64,000 bases of DNA, from contig NZ_CP125295.1 in the NCBI RefSeq assembly GCF_030412785.1, positions 2,790,001-2,854,000 of the forward strand, written 5' to 3'. Made by a program: the position numbers and the translations under genes. This stretch comes from Paraburkholderia sabiae. Lineage in GTDB: Bacteria; Pseudomonadota; Gammaproteobacteria; Burkholderiales; Burkholderiaceae. Positions 17,820 to 37,486 of this stretch are shown in pieces (position 1 is the stretch's first letter; each line of letters starts with the position of its first letter). The notes under the pieces were generated by a model. That model had not been told where the DNA came from. It worked only from the letters and a program-made list of their open reading frames with translations, and ran no database searches.

Positions 17820-18395
17820 ATGCTGCGCGTATTGCTCGTAACCGACACCGACAAGCCGATCGGCGAGTTGCGCGACACGCTCGCGCGGCTCGGCTACGAC
17901 ATGCTTGCCGCGACGGCATCGCCGCAAGCGCTGCACGAGACTGTCGAAAGCGAACGGCCCGACGTCGTGATCATCGACACCGAATCGCCGTCGCGCGACA
18001 CGCTCGAACAGCTCGCCGTGATGAACGCGACGGCACCGCGTCCCGTGCTGATGTTCAGCAACGACGCGAACCAGCAGCTGATACGCGACGCCGTCGGCGC
18101 AGGCGTGACGGCGTATCTCGTCGAAGGACTCGCGACGGAGCGCCTTGCACCGATACTCGAAGTGGCGCTTGCGCGCTTCGCACAAGAATCGCAATTGCGC
18201 GAGCGGCTTGCGCAGGCGGAGAACGAACTCGCCGAGCGCAAGCTGATCGACCGCGCGAAACGCATGCTGATGGATTCGCAAAAGATGACCGAACACGCCG
18301 CCTACGCGACGATGCGCAAGCGCGCGATGAACCAGGGCGTGAAGCTTGCCGAAGTCGCGCGCCAGATCGTCGCCGCCGCCGACTTGCCAGATTGA
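17820..18395 (+). CDS. nasT: ANTAR-domain response regulator NasT
   Basis: A 191-residue protein with a receiver-like domain (about residues 1-120, MLRVLLVTDTD, VIIDTESPSRD) and a C-terminal ANTAR RNA-binding domain (about 125-186, AERKLIDRAKRMLMDSQKMTEHAAYATMRK in two parts). In nitrate-assimilation loci NasT binds paired hairpins in the nas leader and allows readthrough. The next gene, eleven bases downstream, is a NasS-type nitrate sensor that sequesters NasT until nitrate or nitrite appears. No nitrate reductase or transporter gene follows, so the targets are elsewhere. Confidence 0.9.
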   Translation: MLRVLLVTDTDKPIGELRDTLARLGYDMLAATASPQALHETVESERPDVVIIDTESPSRDTLEQLAVMNATAPRPVLMFSNDANQQLIRDAVGAGVTAYLVEGLATERLAPILEVALARFAQESQLRERLAQAENELAERKLIDRAKRMLMDSQKMTEHAAYATMRKRAMNQGVKLAEVARQIVAAADLPD

Positions 18396-18405
18396 TGTGC
18401 AGCTC

Positions 18406-19539
18406 ATGAACTCAACCGCCTACCCCTCTTCATCCGCCGACTCGGGCAAGCTCGAGAAAACGCACTTGCGTCTGGGCTTCGTCGCGCTCAGCGATGCCGC
18501 GCCGCTCGTCGCCGCGAAGCTGCTCGAATTCGGCCATGCGCACGGCCTCACGATCGAGTTGCTGAAACAGCCTTCGTGGGCTGCGATACGCGACAAGCTC
18601 ATATCCGGCGATCTCGATGCCGCGCATTCGCTGTATGGCCTCGTGTATGGCGTGCAACTCGGCCTCGGTGGACCGCAGACGGATATGGCTGTGCTGATGG
18701 TGCTGAATCGCAATGGTCAGGCGATCACGGTATCGAACCGGCTTGCCGCGGCGCTCGACGAGCACAAGACGTTGCCCGCAGCACTGGCGACGCTCGGCCG
18801 CAAGCCTGTATTCGCGCAGACGTTTCCGACGGGCACGCATGCGATGTGGCTGTATTACTGGCTCGCCTCCCAAGGCGTGCATCCGTTGCGCGATATCGAG
18901 AGTGTGGTGATTCCGCCGCCACAGATGGTCGATGCGCTCGAGCAGGATCGACTCGACGGGCTATGCGCCGGAGAGCCTTGGAATGCGGTTGCGCAGGAGC
19001 GTGGTGTCGGGCGGACGATTGCGTATACGAGTGAGGTGTGGCCTGATCATCCCGAGAAGGTACTCGCGAGTCGGCGCGATTTTGTCACGCGATATCCGAA
19101 TACCGCACGTGCGCTTGTGCAGACGATGCTTGAAGCGTGTCGTTGGCTCGATGACGATGAGCATCGGGGCGAGATTGCTCGCAGGCTTGCTGATGCTGCT
19201 TTTCTTGGGGTGTCTGTTGACTCTATCGCTTCGCGGTTGATCGCTGGTGGGTCTGCTTCGGCTGTTAAGTTTTTCGCGGGCGGTGCTGTGAATTTTCCGC
19301 ATCCTGCGGAAGGGGTTTGGTTTTTTGCTCAGTATGCGCGGTGGGGAATGGCTGAGTGGCGGGATGACTTTGCTCGTATTGCGTGTGAAGTTAATCAGAC
19401 TGATTTGTATCGTTTGGCTGCTGATAATGTTGGTGTTGCCGTTGTTGATGGTGCACCTTCGGTGCGGTTGATTGATGGGCAGGTTTGGAACGGCATCGCC
19501 GATCGTGGTTATTTGCAGGGGTTTTCTGTTCGGGGTTAG
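18406..19539 (+). CDS. nasS: Nitrate/nitrite sensor NasS (CmpA/NrtA family)
   Basis: A 377-residue cytosolic protein of the NrtA/CmpA nitrate-binding family, without a signal peptide, as in NasS. Typical segments are LRLGFVALSDAAPLVAAKLLEFG, FPTGTHAMWLYYWLASQGVHP and IPPPQMVDALE. It inhibits NasT until nitrate is bound. It follows nasT by ten bases. Composition shifts along the gene: of the first 53 codons 27 end in C, but of the last 59 only six do, T and G replacing it. The stop is one base before the large palindrome at 19541. Confidence 0.88.
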   Translation: MNSTAYPSSSADSGKLEKTHLRLGFVALSDAAPLVAAKLLEFGHAHGLTIELLKQPSWAAIRDKLISGDLDAAHSLYGLVYGVQLGLGGPQTDMAVLMVLNRNGQAITVSNRLAAALDEHKTLPAALATLGRKPVFAQTFPTGTHAMWLYYWLASQGVHPLRDIESVVIPPPQMVDALEQDRLDGLCAGEPWNAVAQERGVGRTIAYTSEVWPDHPEKVLASRRDFVTRYPNTARALVQTMLEACRWLDDDEHRGEIARRLADAAFLGVSVDSIASRLIAGGSASAVKFFAGGAVNFPHPAEGVWFFAQYARWGMAEWRDDFARIACEVNQTDLYRLAADNVGVAVVDGAPSVRLIDGQVWNGIADRGYLQGFSVRG

Positions 19540-19540
19540 C

Positions 19541-20176
19541 GTTTTGTCTGCGACGCAGTCGCCATTCCGGGTTTTCGCTTTTTTTGTTTTGGCTGGCATC
19601 CGCGATTTCGTATCGGTGCTTCACGCGTTGCCCCTGTGCGGGGCGGCACCTACTTTTCTTTGCAGCGGCAAAGAAAAGTAGGCAAAAGAAAGCCGCTTTT
19701 GTACCTCCGGTGCCGGCCAGGATGGCGCTGTGGCATGCCGCAGTTGAGCTGTCGCGCAGCAACGTCCGCACGCTGTAGAAAGCCCGCAGTCAACCACGCA
19801 CGGCGCGAAAGCCCCACACACAGTCTGGAGCACATACCGCCGCAATCAGACCGACGGCAAAGCCAAAAAAACGTGCTGACCGAATGTGCTCCAGGTGGAT
19901 GTCATCTTTCGCGCCGCGCGCGCCTGACTGCGGGCTTTCTACGGAGTGTTTGCGTCACTGCGCGACAGGTCAAACACCGTGTGCCGTGGCGTTATCCTGG
20001 CGGGCACCGGAGGTTTGAAGCGGCTTTCTTTTGCCTACTTTTCTTTGCCGCTGCAAAGAAAAGTAGGTGCCGCCCCGCACAGGGGCAACGCATGAAGAAC
20101 CGATACGAAATCGCGGACGCCAGCAAAGAAGAAAAACAAAAACCGAGCATGGCGACTAGCGTCGCAGACAAAAAAA
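19541..20176. repeat. About 636-bp nested palindromic element, copy A
   Basis: Almost the whole interval between two convergent stop codons is one imperfect inverted repeat. The left arm (from GTTTTGTCTGCGACG) reappears reversed at the right end (CGTCGCAGACAAAA). Each arm carries a perfect 15-bp hairpin, CCTACTTTTCTTTGC with its complement: 19649-19682 and 20034-20067, each with a 4-nt loop. Inner pairs include GTAGAAAGCCCGCAGTCA with TGACTGCGGGCTTTCTAC and TCTGGAGCACA with TGTGCTCCAG. A near-identical copy is at 36069-36701. It encodes no transposase. Several short frames inside it are by-products of the palindrome. Confidence 0.92.
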
Positions 20177-20178
20177 CC

Positions 20179-21120
20179 TTAATGCGCAGAAATATAAGCC
20201 TTAACGGCCGGCAAGCCGTCCTTGCCATCAATCGTCTGCACTCCGGCTAACCACTTATCCAAAGCCTGAGGATTCGCCTTCAACCAGGCGAGCGCAGCTT
20301 TGTTGGCATCTTCCTTGTTCATGATAGGCACCATCACATGATTCTCGATGGCCGTGGTGAACTGCAGATTGGAAACCAGCTTAGCCGCATTCGGGCACCG
20401 CGCAGCATAGTCCGGCGGCGTAGCCGTAAACACTTTAGCCTCGCCATAATTAGGCCCAAACACATCATCGCCGCCAGCGAGATAATCAATCTTCATCTGC
20501 ACATTCATCGGATGCGGCTCCCAGCCAAGGAACACAATCCATTTCTTGTCGCGAATCGCGCGATTCACCTCGACCAGCATGCCCGCCTCGCTCGACTCCA
20601 CCAGCTTGAACTTGCCCAGCCCGAACTGGTTGCCGTCGATCATCTTCTTGATCAGCGCATTGCCGTCATTGCCCGGCTCGATCCCGTAGATCTTGCCGTC
20701 GAGTTTGTCCGCATACTTCGCGATGTCGCTGAAGTTCTTCAGTCCGCCGTTGTACACGTAATCGGGCACAGCGAGTGTGTACTTCGCGCCCGTCAGGTTC
20801 GGCGTCGCGAGCACCTTGATCGTGCCCGCCTTCACGAAAGGCTGAATGATCGGATCCATCGTCGGCGCCCAATAGCCGAGAAACACGTCGATCTGCTTGC
20901 TCTTGATGCCCGCGAACGTGATCGGCACGGACGCGATCGTCTTGGTCGGGTTGTAGCCGAGGCCCTGGAAGATCGTCGACGCGAGGCCCGTCGTCGCCGC
21001 AATATCGGTCCAGCCGACGTCGGCGAAACGAACGTTGCGGCACACGGCGGGATCAGCGGCGTGTGCCGTCGCGGCCGCCGTCGTCAATAGCGCGGCCGCC
21101 ATCATCAGCTTGCATTTCAT
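20179..21120 (-). CDS. choX: Choline/glycine-betaine ABC transporter substrate-binding protein
   Basis: A 313-residue periplasmic protein of the OpuAC family that delivers choline or a betaine. A Sec signal peptide (about 1-21, ending AHA) precedes the mature start ADPAVCRNVRFADVGWTDI, a typical ChoX beginning, with the conserved DVFLGYWAPTMDP and GWEPHPMN segments whose aromatic residues form the quaternary-amine cage. GAGGAG lies ahead of the ATG. It is the last gene of an operon with proV-, proW- and GlxA-type genes. Codons near its 3-prime end shift to T-ending forms beside the palindrome. Confidence 0.92.
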   Translation of the reverse strand: MKCKLMMAAALLTTAAATAHAADPAVCRNVRFADVGWTDIAATTGLASTIFQGLGYNPTKTIASVPITFAGIKSKQIDVFLGYWAPTMDPIIQPFVKAGTIKVLATPNLTGAKYTLAVPDYVYNGGLKNFSDIAKYADKLDGKIYGIEPGNDGNALIKKMIDGNQFGLGKFKLVESSEAGMLVEVNRAIRDKKWIVFLGWEPHPMNVQMKIDYLAGGDDVFGPNYGEAKVFTATPPDYAARCPNAAKLVSNLQFTTAIENHVMVPIMNKEDANKAALAWLKANPQALDKWLAGVQTIDGKDGLPAVKAYISAH

Positions 21121-35108: not shown

Positions 35109-36068
35109 ATGAGCCAGAACGCCGCCACTGTCGCCCTCGTCAACCGGCTCAAGTTCAAGCATCTTGCGCTGCTCGTCGCGCTCGACGACGCCCGCAACGT
35201 CCATCAGGCCGCCGACGCCATTAACGTCGCGCAGCCGAGCGCGAGCCGCATGCTCGGCGACATCGAAGAAGCGCTGGGCTTTCTGCTGTTCGAACGCAAT
35301 GCGCGCGGCATGCAGCCGACGCCGCTGGGCGTTGTCACACTTGCCTATGCACGGCGTGCGCTCGCGGAACTCACGCGTTTTGCCGAAGATCTCGATGCGA
35401 AGCGTAAAGGCGGCCATGGGCAACTGACGGTTGGCGCGATCATGGGCGCCGCGCCCGATCTGCTGGCGATGGCGGTTGCTGCGCTCAAGACTGAGCGGCC
35501 TTTGTTGCATGTCTGCATTCTCGGTGAGACCAGCGATCAGGTGGTGCAATTGCTGCATCGCCGCGAAGTGGATCTTGCGCTTGGGCGGTTGACTAATCCT
35601 CTGCAGCACAATGATTTCAGTTTTGAGCCTTTGGCGCGGGAGACCCTGGTTCTGGTTGTGCGGGCTGTGCATCCGCTTGCTGAACGGGCTTCTGTTTCGC
35701 TGCGCGAGCTGATGGATTGGCCCTGGGTCGCGCAGCCTGTTTCTAGTCCGGCTCGGGTTTTGTTTGAGGAAGAGCTTGCTCGGGCTGGGCTTGGGACGCC
35801 TGCTAATCTCACCGAATGTGCTTCTATTTTTGCTACTTTGCAGTTGCTTGAGAATTATGACGCTGTCGCTATGTTGCCTGAGTCTGTTGTCAGGGATCAC
35901 GTGCGTGGCAAGTTGCTCGTTGCTCTGCCTGTTGAGATTGGCAAAAGCCTTGCCGGGTTTGGGATTCTTACTCGCAAGGAAGAGGCTCTTGCTGAGCCTG
36001 CGCAGCGGTTTGTTGAGCTGTTGAGGGTGCACTCTGCGAGGCTTTCTCGGGAAGATGCCCTGGCCTAG
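35109..36068 (+). CDS. LysR-family regulator divergent from the rhamnose operon
   Basis: A 319-residue LysR-type regulator with the N-terminal HTH (about 12-75, LKFKHLALLVALDDARNVHQAADAINVAQPSASRMLGDIE in parts) and a periplasmic-binding-like sensor. It diverges from the mutarotase gene with 158 bp between the starts, so it likely controls the rhamnose operon; a TATAAT at 35019-35024 in the shared gap is a candidate -10. Of its last 21 codons only three end in C, with G and T taking over, and the stop adjoins palindrome copy B at 36069. Confidence 0.88.
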   Translation: MSQNAATVALVNRLKFKHLALLVALDDARNVHQAADAINVAQPSASRMLGDIEEALGFLLFERNARGMQPTPLGVVTLAYARRALAELTRFAEDLDAKRKGGHGQLTVGAIMGAAPDLLAMAVAALKTERPLLHVCILGETSDQVVQLLHRREVDLALGRLTNPLQHNDFSFEPLARETLVLVVRAVHPLAERASVSLRELMDWPWVAQPVSSPARVLFEEELARAGLGTPANLTECASIFATLQLLENYDAVAMLPESVVRDHVRGKLLVALPVEIGKSLAGFGILTRKEEALAEPAQRFVELLRVHSARLSREDALA

Positions 36069-36701
36069 TTGTTTTTTTGTCTGCGACGCTAGTCGCCATT
36101 CTGTGCTTTTTGGTTTTTGCTTTTGGCTGGCATCCGCGAATTCGTATCCGTACTTCACGCGTCGCCCCTGTGCGGGGCGGCACCTACTTTTCTTTGCAGC
36201 GGCAAAGAAAAGTAGGCAAAAGAAAGCCGCTTTTGAACCTCCGGTGCCTGCCCGAATAGCGCTGCGGCGTGCCGCAGTTGAGCTATCGCTCAGCGACGTC
36301 CGCACTCTGTAGAAAGCCCGCAGTCAACCGCGCACGGCGCGAAAGCCCCACACAGTCTGGAGCACATACCGCCGCAATCAACCGAGGGCAAATGCAAAAA
36401 AACGTGCTGACCGAATGTGCTCCAGGTGGATGTCATGTTTCGCGCCGCGCGCGCCTGACTGCGGGCTTTCTACGGAGTGTTTGCGTCACTGCGCGACAGC
36501 TCAAGGACCGTGTGCCGTGGCGTTATCCTGGCGGGCACCGGAGGTTTGAAGCGGCTTTCTTTTGCCTACTTTTCTTTGCCGCTGCAAAGAAAAGTAGGTG
36601 CCGCCCCGCACAGGGGCAACGCGTGAAGTACGGATACGAATTCGCGGATGCCAGCGCCGCAAAAAGCCAAAAATGGCGACTAGCGTCGCAGACAAAAAAG
36701 C
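36069..36701. repeat. About 633-bp nested palindromic element, copy B
   Basis: Second copy of the element at 19541-20176, with the same arms, inner dyads and order. The two perfect 15-bp hairpins CCTACTTTTCTTTGC / complement are at 36183-36216 and 36565-36598. It fills the gap between the stop codon of the LysR gene (36068) and that of the rhamnose dehydrogenase gene on the other strand (36704). Differences from copy A are scattered point changes and small indels, mostly between the arms and near the ends. No transposase frame and no obvious target-site duplication is seen. Confidence 0.92.
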
Positions 36702-36703
36702 AG

Positions 36704-37486
36704 CTACTGCAAATTCACAAACAACCCACCATCGACCAACAAAGCAGCGCCAGTAACATACCTTGCCCGGTCGGAGGCCAAAAACACCACACACTCGGCG
36801 ACGTCATCAGGCTGCCCCAACCGCCCTAAAGGAATCCGCTTCTCAAAGTAAGCCTTCTTGGCGTCATCAGCCAGGTCCTCGGCATTAAGATCAGTAGCAA
36901 TAGTCCCAGGCATAACCGAATTACACCGAATCCCAAAAGGTCCAAGAGCGACAGCACATGACTGCATCAAAGAATGCACACCAGCCTTGGTGGGCGTGTA
37001 GTGCGTCTGCATACCGCCACCCACTAGCGCGCTAATAGAACTAGTCGCGACAATCGCACCGCCCGTACCTTGCGCCTTCATCTGCTGCGCAGCAGCCTGA
37101 GTGACAAAAAACGCGCCGTTGAGATTAACGGCAACGGTAGTTTCGAGCACATCAGCAGGCATATCCAGAAACGCATGAAACGGACAAATACCTGCATTGC
37201 TGGCCAGCACATCGACCTTGCCGAAGGCATCAACAGTTCGAGCCACAAGCTCGACGCCAGTCGAACGCAGAGCAACGTTCCCTTCAACGGCAATCACTCG
37301 TCGCCCAAGCGCCTGAATCTCATCGACAACCTCGTCAACAGCGGAGCGCCGGCCATACGATGCATCGTTATCGCCCCAGTAATTGATCGCGACATCGGCG
37401 CCCTCACGCGCACACGCCACCGCGATCGCGCGTCCAATGCCGCGCGAGCCGCCCGTCACGATCACCGACTTGTCTTTCAGCAGCAC
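36704..37486 (-). CDS. L-rhamnose 1-dehydrogenase (SDR family)
   Basis: A 260-residue short-chain dehydrogenase oxidising L-rhamnose at C1 to the lactone. The cofactor loop is TGGSRGIG (residues 11-18) and the catalytic region reads SSISALVGGGMQTHYTPTKAG, giving Ser-Tyr-Lys. The C-terminus RYVTGAALLVDGGLFVNLQ and NAGICPFHAFLDMP match characterised bacterial L-rhamnose 1-dehydrogenases closely, so this call is firmer than usual for SDRs. Downstream genes in the operon order come first on this strand: KDR-dehydrogenase, MFS, dehydratase, then this gene. Codon use is T/G-rich at third positions, with 11 of the last 54 codons ending in C. Confidence 0.88.
   Translation of the reverse strand: MLLKDKSVIVTGGSRGIGRAIAVACAREGADVAINYWGDNDASYGRRSAVDEVVDEIQALGRRVIAVEGNVALRSTGVELVARTVDAFGKVDVLASNAGICPFHAFLDMPADVLETTVAVNLNGAFFVTQAAAQQMKAQGTGGAIVATSSISALVGGGMQTHYTPTKAGVHSLMQSCAVALGPFGIRCNSVMPGTIATDLNAEDLADDAKKAYFEKRIPLGRLGQPDDVAECVVFLASDRARYVTGAALLVDGGLFVNLQ

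Follow-up and report, generated by a model that had tools for sequence, protein, structure and literature searches.

The 64,000-nucleotide stretch of the Paraburkholderia sabiae genome that we analyzed (the window; contig NZ_CP125295.1, positions 2,790,001 to 2,854,000) contains two intergenic gaps that are filled almost from stop codon to stop codon by the same large palindrome. What kind of DNA occupies these gaps, why does it sit where two genes end and what does it do to the genes beside it?

A palindromic family at gene 3′ ends

The first-pass annotation of the window had described two nearly identical palindromes of ∼635 bp, each ending within a few bases of the stops of unrelated convergent genes, and our alignments bore this out. 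Copy A (19541–20176) and copy B (36072–36699, as bounded by alignment), neither of them assigned a strand, are 91.3% identical over 635 columns, and each matches its own reverse complement end to end at ∼79 to 80%. Copy A begins 1 bp past the TAG of an NMT1-like gene (18346–19539, plus strand) and stops 2 bp short of the stop of an OpuAC-type gene (20179–21120, minus strand), both encoding substrate-binding proteins; copy B is placed between genes for a LysR regulator (35109–36068, plus strand) and a short-chain dehydrogenase (36704–37486, minus strand), and the four genes are unrelated. The proposed nesting held in part: each copy contains two perfect 15-bp hairpins, starting at 19649 and 20034 in A and at 36183 and 36565 in B, but the palindrome runs through the whole element and is not confined to outer arms of ∼190 bp. 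Folded as single-stranded DNA, copy A reached –296.5 kcal/mol in comparison with –123.6 (SD 5.0) in 20 shuffled sequences (z = –34.7).

In general form, the element is an imperfect palindrome of ∼630 bp in which an almost invariant segment of ∼70 bp, the H module, occurs twice, the two copies facing each other. Among 16 copies from the source genome, the module differed at only a few positions, whichever arm it lay in, and was less variable than the remainder of the element. The modules of copy A span 19625–19697 on the plus strand and, facing it, 20019–20091 on the minus strand (hairpins at 19649–19682 and 20034–20067), and those of copy B 36159–36231 on the plus and 36550–36622 on the minus strand (hairpins at 36183–36216 and 36565–36598). 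Each module consists of a GC hairpin (GCCCC-TGTGC-GGGGC), the 15-bp perfect hairpin and a purine stretch, the last being CAAAAGAAAG at 19683–19692 in the left module of A. A pyrimidine tract TTTTCTTT, a purine tract AAAGAAAA and a mirror purine tract AAAAGAAA follow each other in one strand, the order that, with a stem of at least 8, defines class II (PIT/TM) intrastrand triplex motifs; the H module may be seen as a hairpin with a mirror third strand and a potential intrastrand DNA triplex. The A-runs of the third strand mirrored the stem in all 389 matches having one (stem 3,4 with third strand 4,3 in 307; 3,3 with 3,3 in 82), although the loci overlap and only two variants exist, so that this support reflects few independent changes. 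The other 404 of the 793 H-module matches lacked a third strand in the reading used, approximately the share to be expected when every module is read a second time, from the opposite strand. At 64 sites in seven sequence sets, some of them orthologous, we found 48 facing pairs (+–), 14 single modules, one ++– and one – –, and none arranged –+ or ++.

A and B had also been suggested to belong to a dispersed family at gene 3′ ends, and a search of the whole 9.9-Mb source genome confirmed it: the exact 34-base hairpin occurred 195 times and a variant hairpin (TTACTTTCTTTGC...) 41 times, and we estimate that the genome holds roughly 100 two-module elements. The exact hairpin was present in 18 of the 58 relatives searched, all of the same genus, at 1 to 338 copies each. 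It was found in 0 of 397 other genomes of the phylum (one of them of the same genus), which argues against a wide spread, and, within the family, 10 of 149 further genomes had the variant hairpin. Among the 80 matches listed, the named contigs with the hairpin came from Paraburkholderia or "Burkholderia sp.," plus two from Pseudoxanthomonas, while 21 plasmid records with a partial match belonged to Paraburkholderia, Caballeronia and Burkholderia. A phage origin was rejected, the element having no match among phage records. Many draft contigs (Paraburkholderia sp. C35 at L031, L048, L049, L054 and L103, and others) terminate close to an H module, a few dozen bases away at most, implying that short-read assemblies are interrupted at the elements and that draft genomes contain more of them than are counted; the loci L031 to L150 were picked by the hairpin, and organisms overlap among them.

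The placement of the family is strongly skewed. The 35 hits in 1.2 Mb of contiguous sequence comprised 17 in convergent, 18 in tandem and 0 in divergent gaps, against 166, 613 and 164 of the 943 background gaps in the same sequence; in three cases, two of the hits appear to be fragments of a single element. Elements are thus neither mainly internal to operons or upstream of promoters nor placed as by chance, the arrangements that the first-pass annotation had set against its own proposal. Genes were called by codon usage and some were missed, such as 36704–37486, which means that convergent placement is undercounted. Tail-facing element ends lay at most 10 nt from the stop codon in 35 of 52 cases (counted by hand), with at least one further end overlooked because its gene was not called, and element-free convergent gaps had a median length of 61 bp (149 gaps).

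A C-to-T halo beside the elements

On the strand running 5′ to 3′ toward an element, T has taken the place of most third-position C, the effect fading over ∼1 kb. In abutting genes, T3/(C3+T3) was 0.74, 0.67, 0.58, 0.38 and 0.25 at 0 to 100, 100 to 200, 200 to 400, 400 to 700 and 700 to 1,000 nt from the stop, and control genes more than 6 kb from elements gave 0.23 to 0.26; A3/(A3+G3) in the last 100 nt was 0.10 compared with 0.20 in controls. The 99th percentile of the controls (0.468) was exceeded by 37 of 39 abutting genes. In the window, T3/(C3+T3) was 0.86 in the last 100 codons and 0.45 in the remainder of the NMT1-like gene, with corresponding values of 0.60 and 0.23 for the OpuAC-type gene, 0.75 and 0.46 for the LysR regulator and 0.69 and 0.57 for the short-chain dehydrogenase. 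Scored by gap, the median halo of 33 element gaps was 0.55 and the 99th percentile of 910 element-free gaps 0.38, and a comparable halo was absent from 111 element-free convergent gaps. The top element-free score, 0.66, came from a 1,964-bp convergent gap of the source genome (C1:1775753, L175) in which no element was detected; it perhaps reflects the loss of an element or imported DNA that differs in composition.

The halo came and went with the element across genomes. For six genes, the mean was 0.59 where an element was present (34 gene–genome pairs, 0.26 to 0.76) and 0.27 where it was not (34 pairs, 0.11 to 0.54). Gene P in G020 (0.27) and gene Y in G001 (0.26) had an element but little halo, and, of the high values without an element, 0.54 for phoR and 0.43 for ppk in G021 were at contig ends, where an element may have been cut off. 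The ppk gene lacked a halo in G066 (0.28) and G077 (0.26), where another open reading frame separates it from the element; at these loci (L275 and L277), ∼5 kb lies between a complete element and ppk and includes, in G066, an open reading frame of 1,460 codons. Two gaps of G061 that had a halo and lacked the standard hairpin contained H-module remnants or a variant, and sites with a single H module also had halos, in part. Named loci of other species showed the gradient of the source genome and loci with the variant hairpin a weaker one; the two Pseudoxanthomonas loci, too few to judge, had no clear halo. In several species (L043, L047, L061), the inward strand from the stop to the H module consists almost wholly of T/G repeats (TTTTGG), a composition that may mark the final stage of the C-to-T process.

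The orientation of the flanking genes separates the effects of geometry and transcription. In 14 genes starting near an element and running away from it, the pattern at 60 to 200 nt was the mirror image, with A3/(A3+G3) of 0.41 against 0.19 and T3/(C3+T3) of 0.11 against 0.22, and 30 head-facing genes from named loci in other species repeated it (P = 0.0014 and 0.0038); the head-facing proteins were recognized by eye. Left and right flanks were equal in three regions, one of them with opposite GC skew. Being two-sided and mirrored, if weaker, in genes facing away, the halo follows geometry and not the direction of transcription or of the replication fork, and transcription of the head-facing genes cannot produce it. 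At equal distance (100 to 300 bp of tandem elements), head-facing flanks were nevertheless weaker than tail-facing ones (0.46 vs. 0.63), and transcription may therefore play a part.

A comparison of two P. caribensis strains, with PGU19 as the outgroup and covering 150 kb and five element sites, suggests that halo formation is continuing. On the inward strand within 300 bp, we counted 21 C>T changes at 769 C and 14 G>A changes at 1,315 G (P = 0.007), and within 600 bp 40 at 1,862 and 28 at 2,806 (P = 0.0017); beyond 4 kb, the events numbered 571 and 558. According to hand sums for the same strand within 300 bp, A>G was not raised (8 at ∼604 A, the rate found beyond 4 kb), and T>G (13 at ∼955 T) and G>T (9 at 1,315 G) were raised three- to fourfold. 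This last excess is not predicted by plain deamination and counts against a simple C-deamination account; it may reflect error-prone synthesis.

Turnover, inversion and the case for breakage

The elements themselves change rapidly. Three orthologous elements of the two P. caribensis strains were 88.0, 89.3 and 88.3% identical in the better orientation, the second being flipped, while paralogues were 86.2 to 88.3% identical and the flanks ∼95.5%. Orthologous elements have thus diverged much more rapidly than the DNA around them. Two MBA4 paralogues separated by 19 kb were 95.3% identical. A 3.9-kb segment with gene X (Ppx-like, by eye) and ppk, bounded by an element at each end, is inverted in G000 and G020 relative to the orientation in G001, G066, G067, G077 and the six relatives lacking elements at this place in which all four genes were found. 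The positions are stable: of the 11 element gaps in 400 kb of G000, five had adjacent orthologues in G020 and all five carried an element there, and none of the 168 other adjacent pairs showed a gain between the two genomes. One element of the source genome (C1:1799258–1801147, L176) contains an IS481-type transposase gene (Pfam integrase core and LZ_Tnp_IS481), its right H module being interrupted in the hairpin loop.

The roles proposed in the first-pass annotation left out the halo, the turnover and flipping of elements and the inversion, which together point to a site of breakage and recombination. We consider it reasonably probable that the elements are naturally fragile sites of recombination, at which double-strand breaks with two ends recur, are resected and are repaired from another copy; breakage and resection, like termination, are read here from genome sequence. 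The facing H modules and palindromic arms would fold, as hairpin or triplex, when single-stranded and provoke a two-ended break. Resection 5′ to 3′ of both ends would then leave the strands with 3′ ends toward the element single-stranded over ∼0.5 to 1 kb, where, as the halo suggests, they would gain C-to-T changes. Repair would often draw on another copy, and the sequence comparisons support this step, in which elements would convert each other, flip and invert the intervening DNA. Finally, repeated erosion of noncoding DNA, which selection would halt at the stop codons, may have removed the old terminators. In yeast, two-sided resection of a break gives mutated C on the left and mutated G on the right (PMC6786661). 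A double-strand-break hotspot would be expected to show C-to-T changes on both sides, coordinated by strand and with one switch between them; this is the pattern found here, and the match supports the break reading. Against that reading stand the weaker halo of head-facing flanks, the spectrum of recent substitutions, the failure of SbcCD to reach its cut-off in the source genome, the halos seen in part at single-module sites and the two cases of an element with little halo.

The halo could also be ascribed to transcription, with the elements acting as terminators that stall RNA polymerase and R-loops exposing the non-template strand of incoming genes to C-to-T changes on the sense strand. The position at gene 3′ ends and the stronger halo on tail-facing flanks would fit, but head-facing genes carry the opposite sign on their sense strand and the 111 element-free convergent gaps have no such halo, and we hold this account to be unlikely. 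Replication without a break, in which forks stall at the folded element and a gap in the lagging-strand template is mutated, draws on the finding that triplex motifs of a similar kind block DNA polymerase in vitro (PMC4666352); a fork, however, reaches an element from one side, yet the flanks were equal in all three regions, leaving this account little probability. It would seem equally improbable that the elements are MITE-like and non-autonomous, moved by a transposase in trans, with the 3′-end position the least harmful place and the halo an old by-product. High copy number, inverted ends and a tail-repeat-tail bias like that of other repeat families (PMC2718517) agree with such an origin. 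Against it, none of the 13 sampled elements with both termini intact shared even 3 flanking bases (duplications of 3 to 9 bp were considered), as the first-pass annotation had noted for A and B, the alignable positions were all shared and no gains were seen, a RAYT link is absent and the halo appears to be still accruing. The same findings weigh against the annotation's suggestion that the family spreads by a trans-acting enzyme.

Several candidate components were examined and set aside. SbcCD as the cutter found no backing, since TIGR00619 was above cut-off in 5 of 40 genomes, the source genome being among the 40, and not in G000, G001 or G020; one genome above the cut-off (G018) has 95 hairpins, and there was no clear association with the elements. 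In the source genome, SbcD, a component of the palindrome nuclease, was not above cut-off. Mobilization by RAYT was rejected because PF01797 matched in 17 of 17 genomes with or without many elements, with one weak match in G000, and loss of uracil glycosylase because ung was found in all 17. Selection for Chi-like words was also dismissed: GCTGGTGG occurred 8 times inward and 3 times outward in 108 kb of flank (3.3 expected), an excess too small to explain the shift in composition.

A bolder version of the breakage account would have ∼100 dedicated break-and-repair stations, at which the invariant H module is read by a specific nuclease whose cuts, placed at the 3′ ends of genes as the least harmful position, drive constant gene conversion and inversion between stations as a counterpart of meiotic recombination hotspots, with the halo as a fossil record of resection. 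We regard this as speculative and rather doubtful. If the halo reflects resection, breakage sites, resection length and the exposed strand could be read from bacterial sequence alone; long-known and unexplained palindromic repeats would be tied to breakage, concerted evolution, local inversion and terminator loss, and the restriction of such repeats to the 3′ ends of genes would be explained. A further caution is that a neighboring repeat, rather than selection, can determine the codon usage close to the end of a gene, and the family offers a natural system for learning what breaks folded DNA in bacteria without SbcCD above cut-off.

Termination and relation to known repeats

A terminator role, also raised by the first-pass annotation, is plausible on comparative grounds and less so on structural ones. 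In seven relatives without an element at phoR/ppk (G005, G021, G024, G026, G028, G061 and G086), some of which carry hairpins elsewhere, the gaps are 71 to 275 bp long, and 9 of the 12 fully shown contain, as read by eye, an ordinary terminator of hairpin and T-run. Most gap ends of this region in G020, G001, G066, G067 and G077, and likewise in G000, start, at the stop or close to it, with T/G-rich sequence of the element type. A terminator was not present at every site, as the P and Q genes are separated by 18 bp in G005 and overlap in G021. A scan of copy A found two sites with GC hairpin and T-run, against 1.8 in shuffled sequences, and RNA folds of its outermost 84 and 70 nt did not surpass those of shuffled sequence (z = 1.10 and –0.82), in contrast to a 71-nt segment spanning its left H module (z = –5.23). 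Under a strict rule within 120 nt, a terminator was present at 1 of 34 element tails and at 50 of 298 element-free convergent tails. The elements probably end transcription of the adjoining genes, having replaced old terminators, an inference whose genome-wide support is weak.

Holder et al. (2015, PMC4666352) tie the triplex motifs BoxC, PIT and TM to rearrangement and variable flanking DNA in Escherichia coli. The H module shares with them the order of pyrimidine, purine and mirror purine in one strand and the intergenic location, and differs, as far as that account goes, in being A/T-rich, in forming facing pairs within a ∼630-bp palindrome at stop codons and in the strand-coordinated halo. 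Like REP, BIME and REPIN sequences (GTAG- and CGTC-tagged), the elements are numerous, intergenic and inversely paired, and the convergent REPs of that study often lie within 20 bp of both 3′ ends (PMC3733652). The unit of REPs and REPINs is 20 to 40 bp with an unpaired GTAG/CGTC foot, whereas the element is ∼20 times longer, with its foot CCTAC...GTAGG inside the paired stem, and RAYT genes did not track it across the 17 genomes tested. It resembles a MITE in being an inverted repeat from end to end and differs in the missing target-site duplication. The intergenic repeats of Pseudomonas fluorescens show the tail-repeat-tail bias and are suspected in rearrangements, but the families tabled there are 50 to 352 bp and the account, in the part available, describes no mutation halo (PMC2718517). 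A chromosomal palindrome of E. coli with SbcCD and RecA offers a parallel for palindromes leading to breaks and rearrangement (PMC3315005), although that was a single interrupted palindrome of 246 bp, compared with ∼100 natural sites here in a genome with SbcD not above cut-off. In the open-license literature, we found no published account of the element or of such a halo around a natural bacterial repeat; the placement and the general kind of family are known already, whereas the pairing of triplex-type modules in a palindrome and, most of all, the halo appear to be novel.

The outer arm of the element appears related to the Rfam family RF02421 (Bp1_684): one element of G061 scored 44.8 bits, above the gathering threshold, and copy A 33.3 and 27.6 bits, below it, with one hit in 11 sources. 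In Burkholderia pseudomallei, Bp1_684 is an RT-PCR-validated sRNA between pdhB and lpdA (PMC3521395), reported there as a single sRNA, unlike the arm of a dispersed palindrome seen here. The source genome has a single H module ∼100 bp upstream of an lpd-like gene, recognized by eye (C1:1273266, L164), which, given the location of Bp1_Cand684 between pdhB and lpdA, may be an old, conserved copy.
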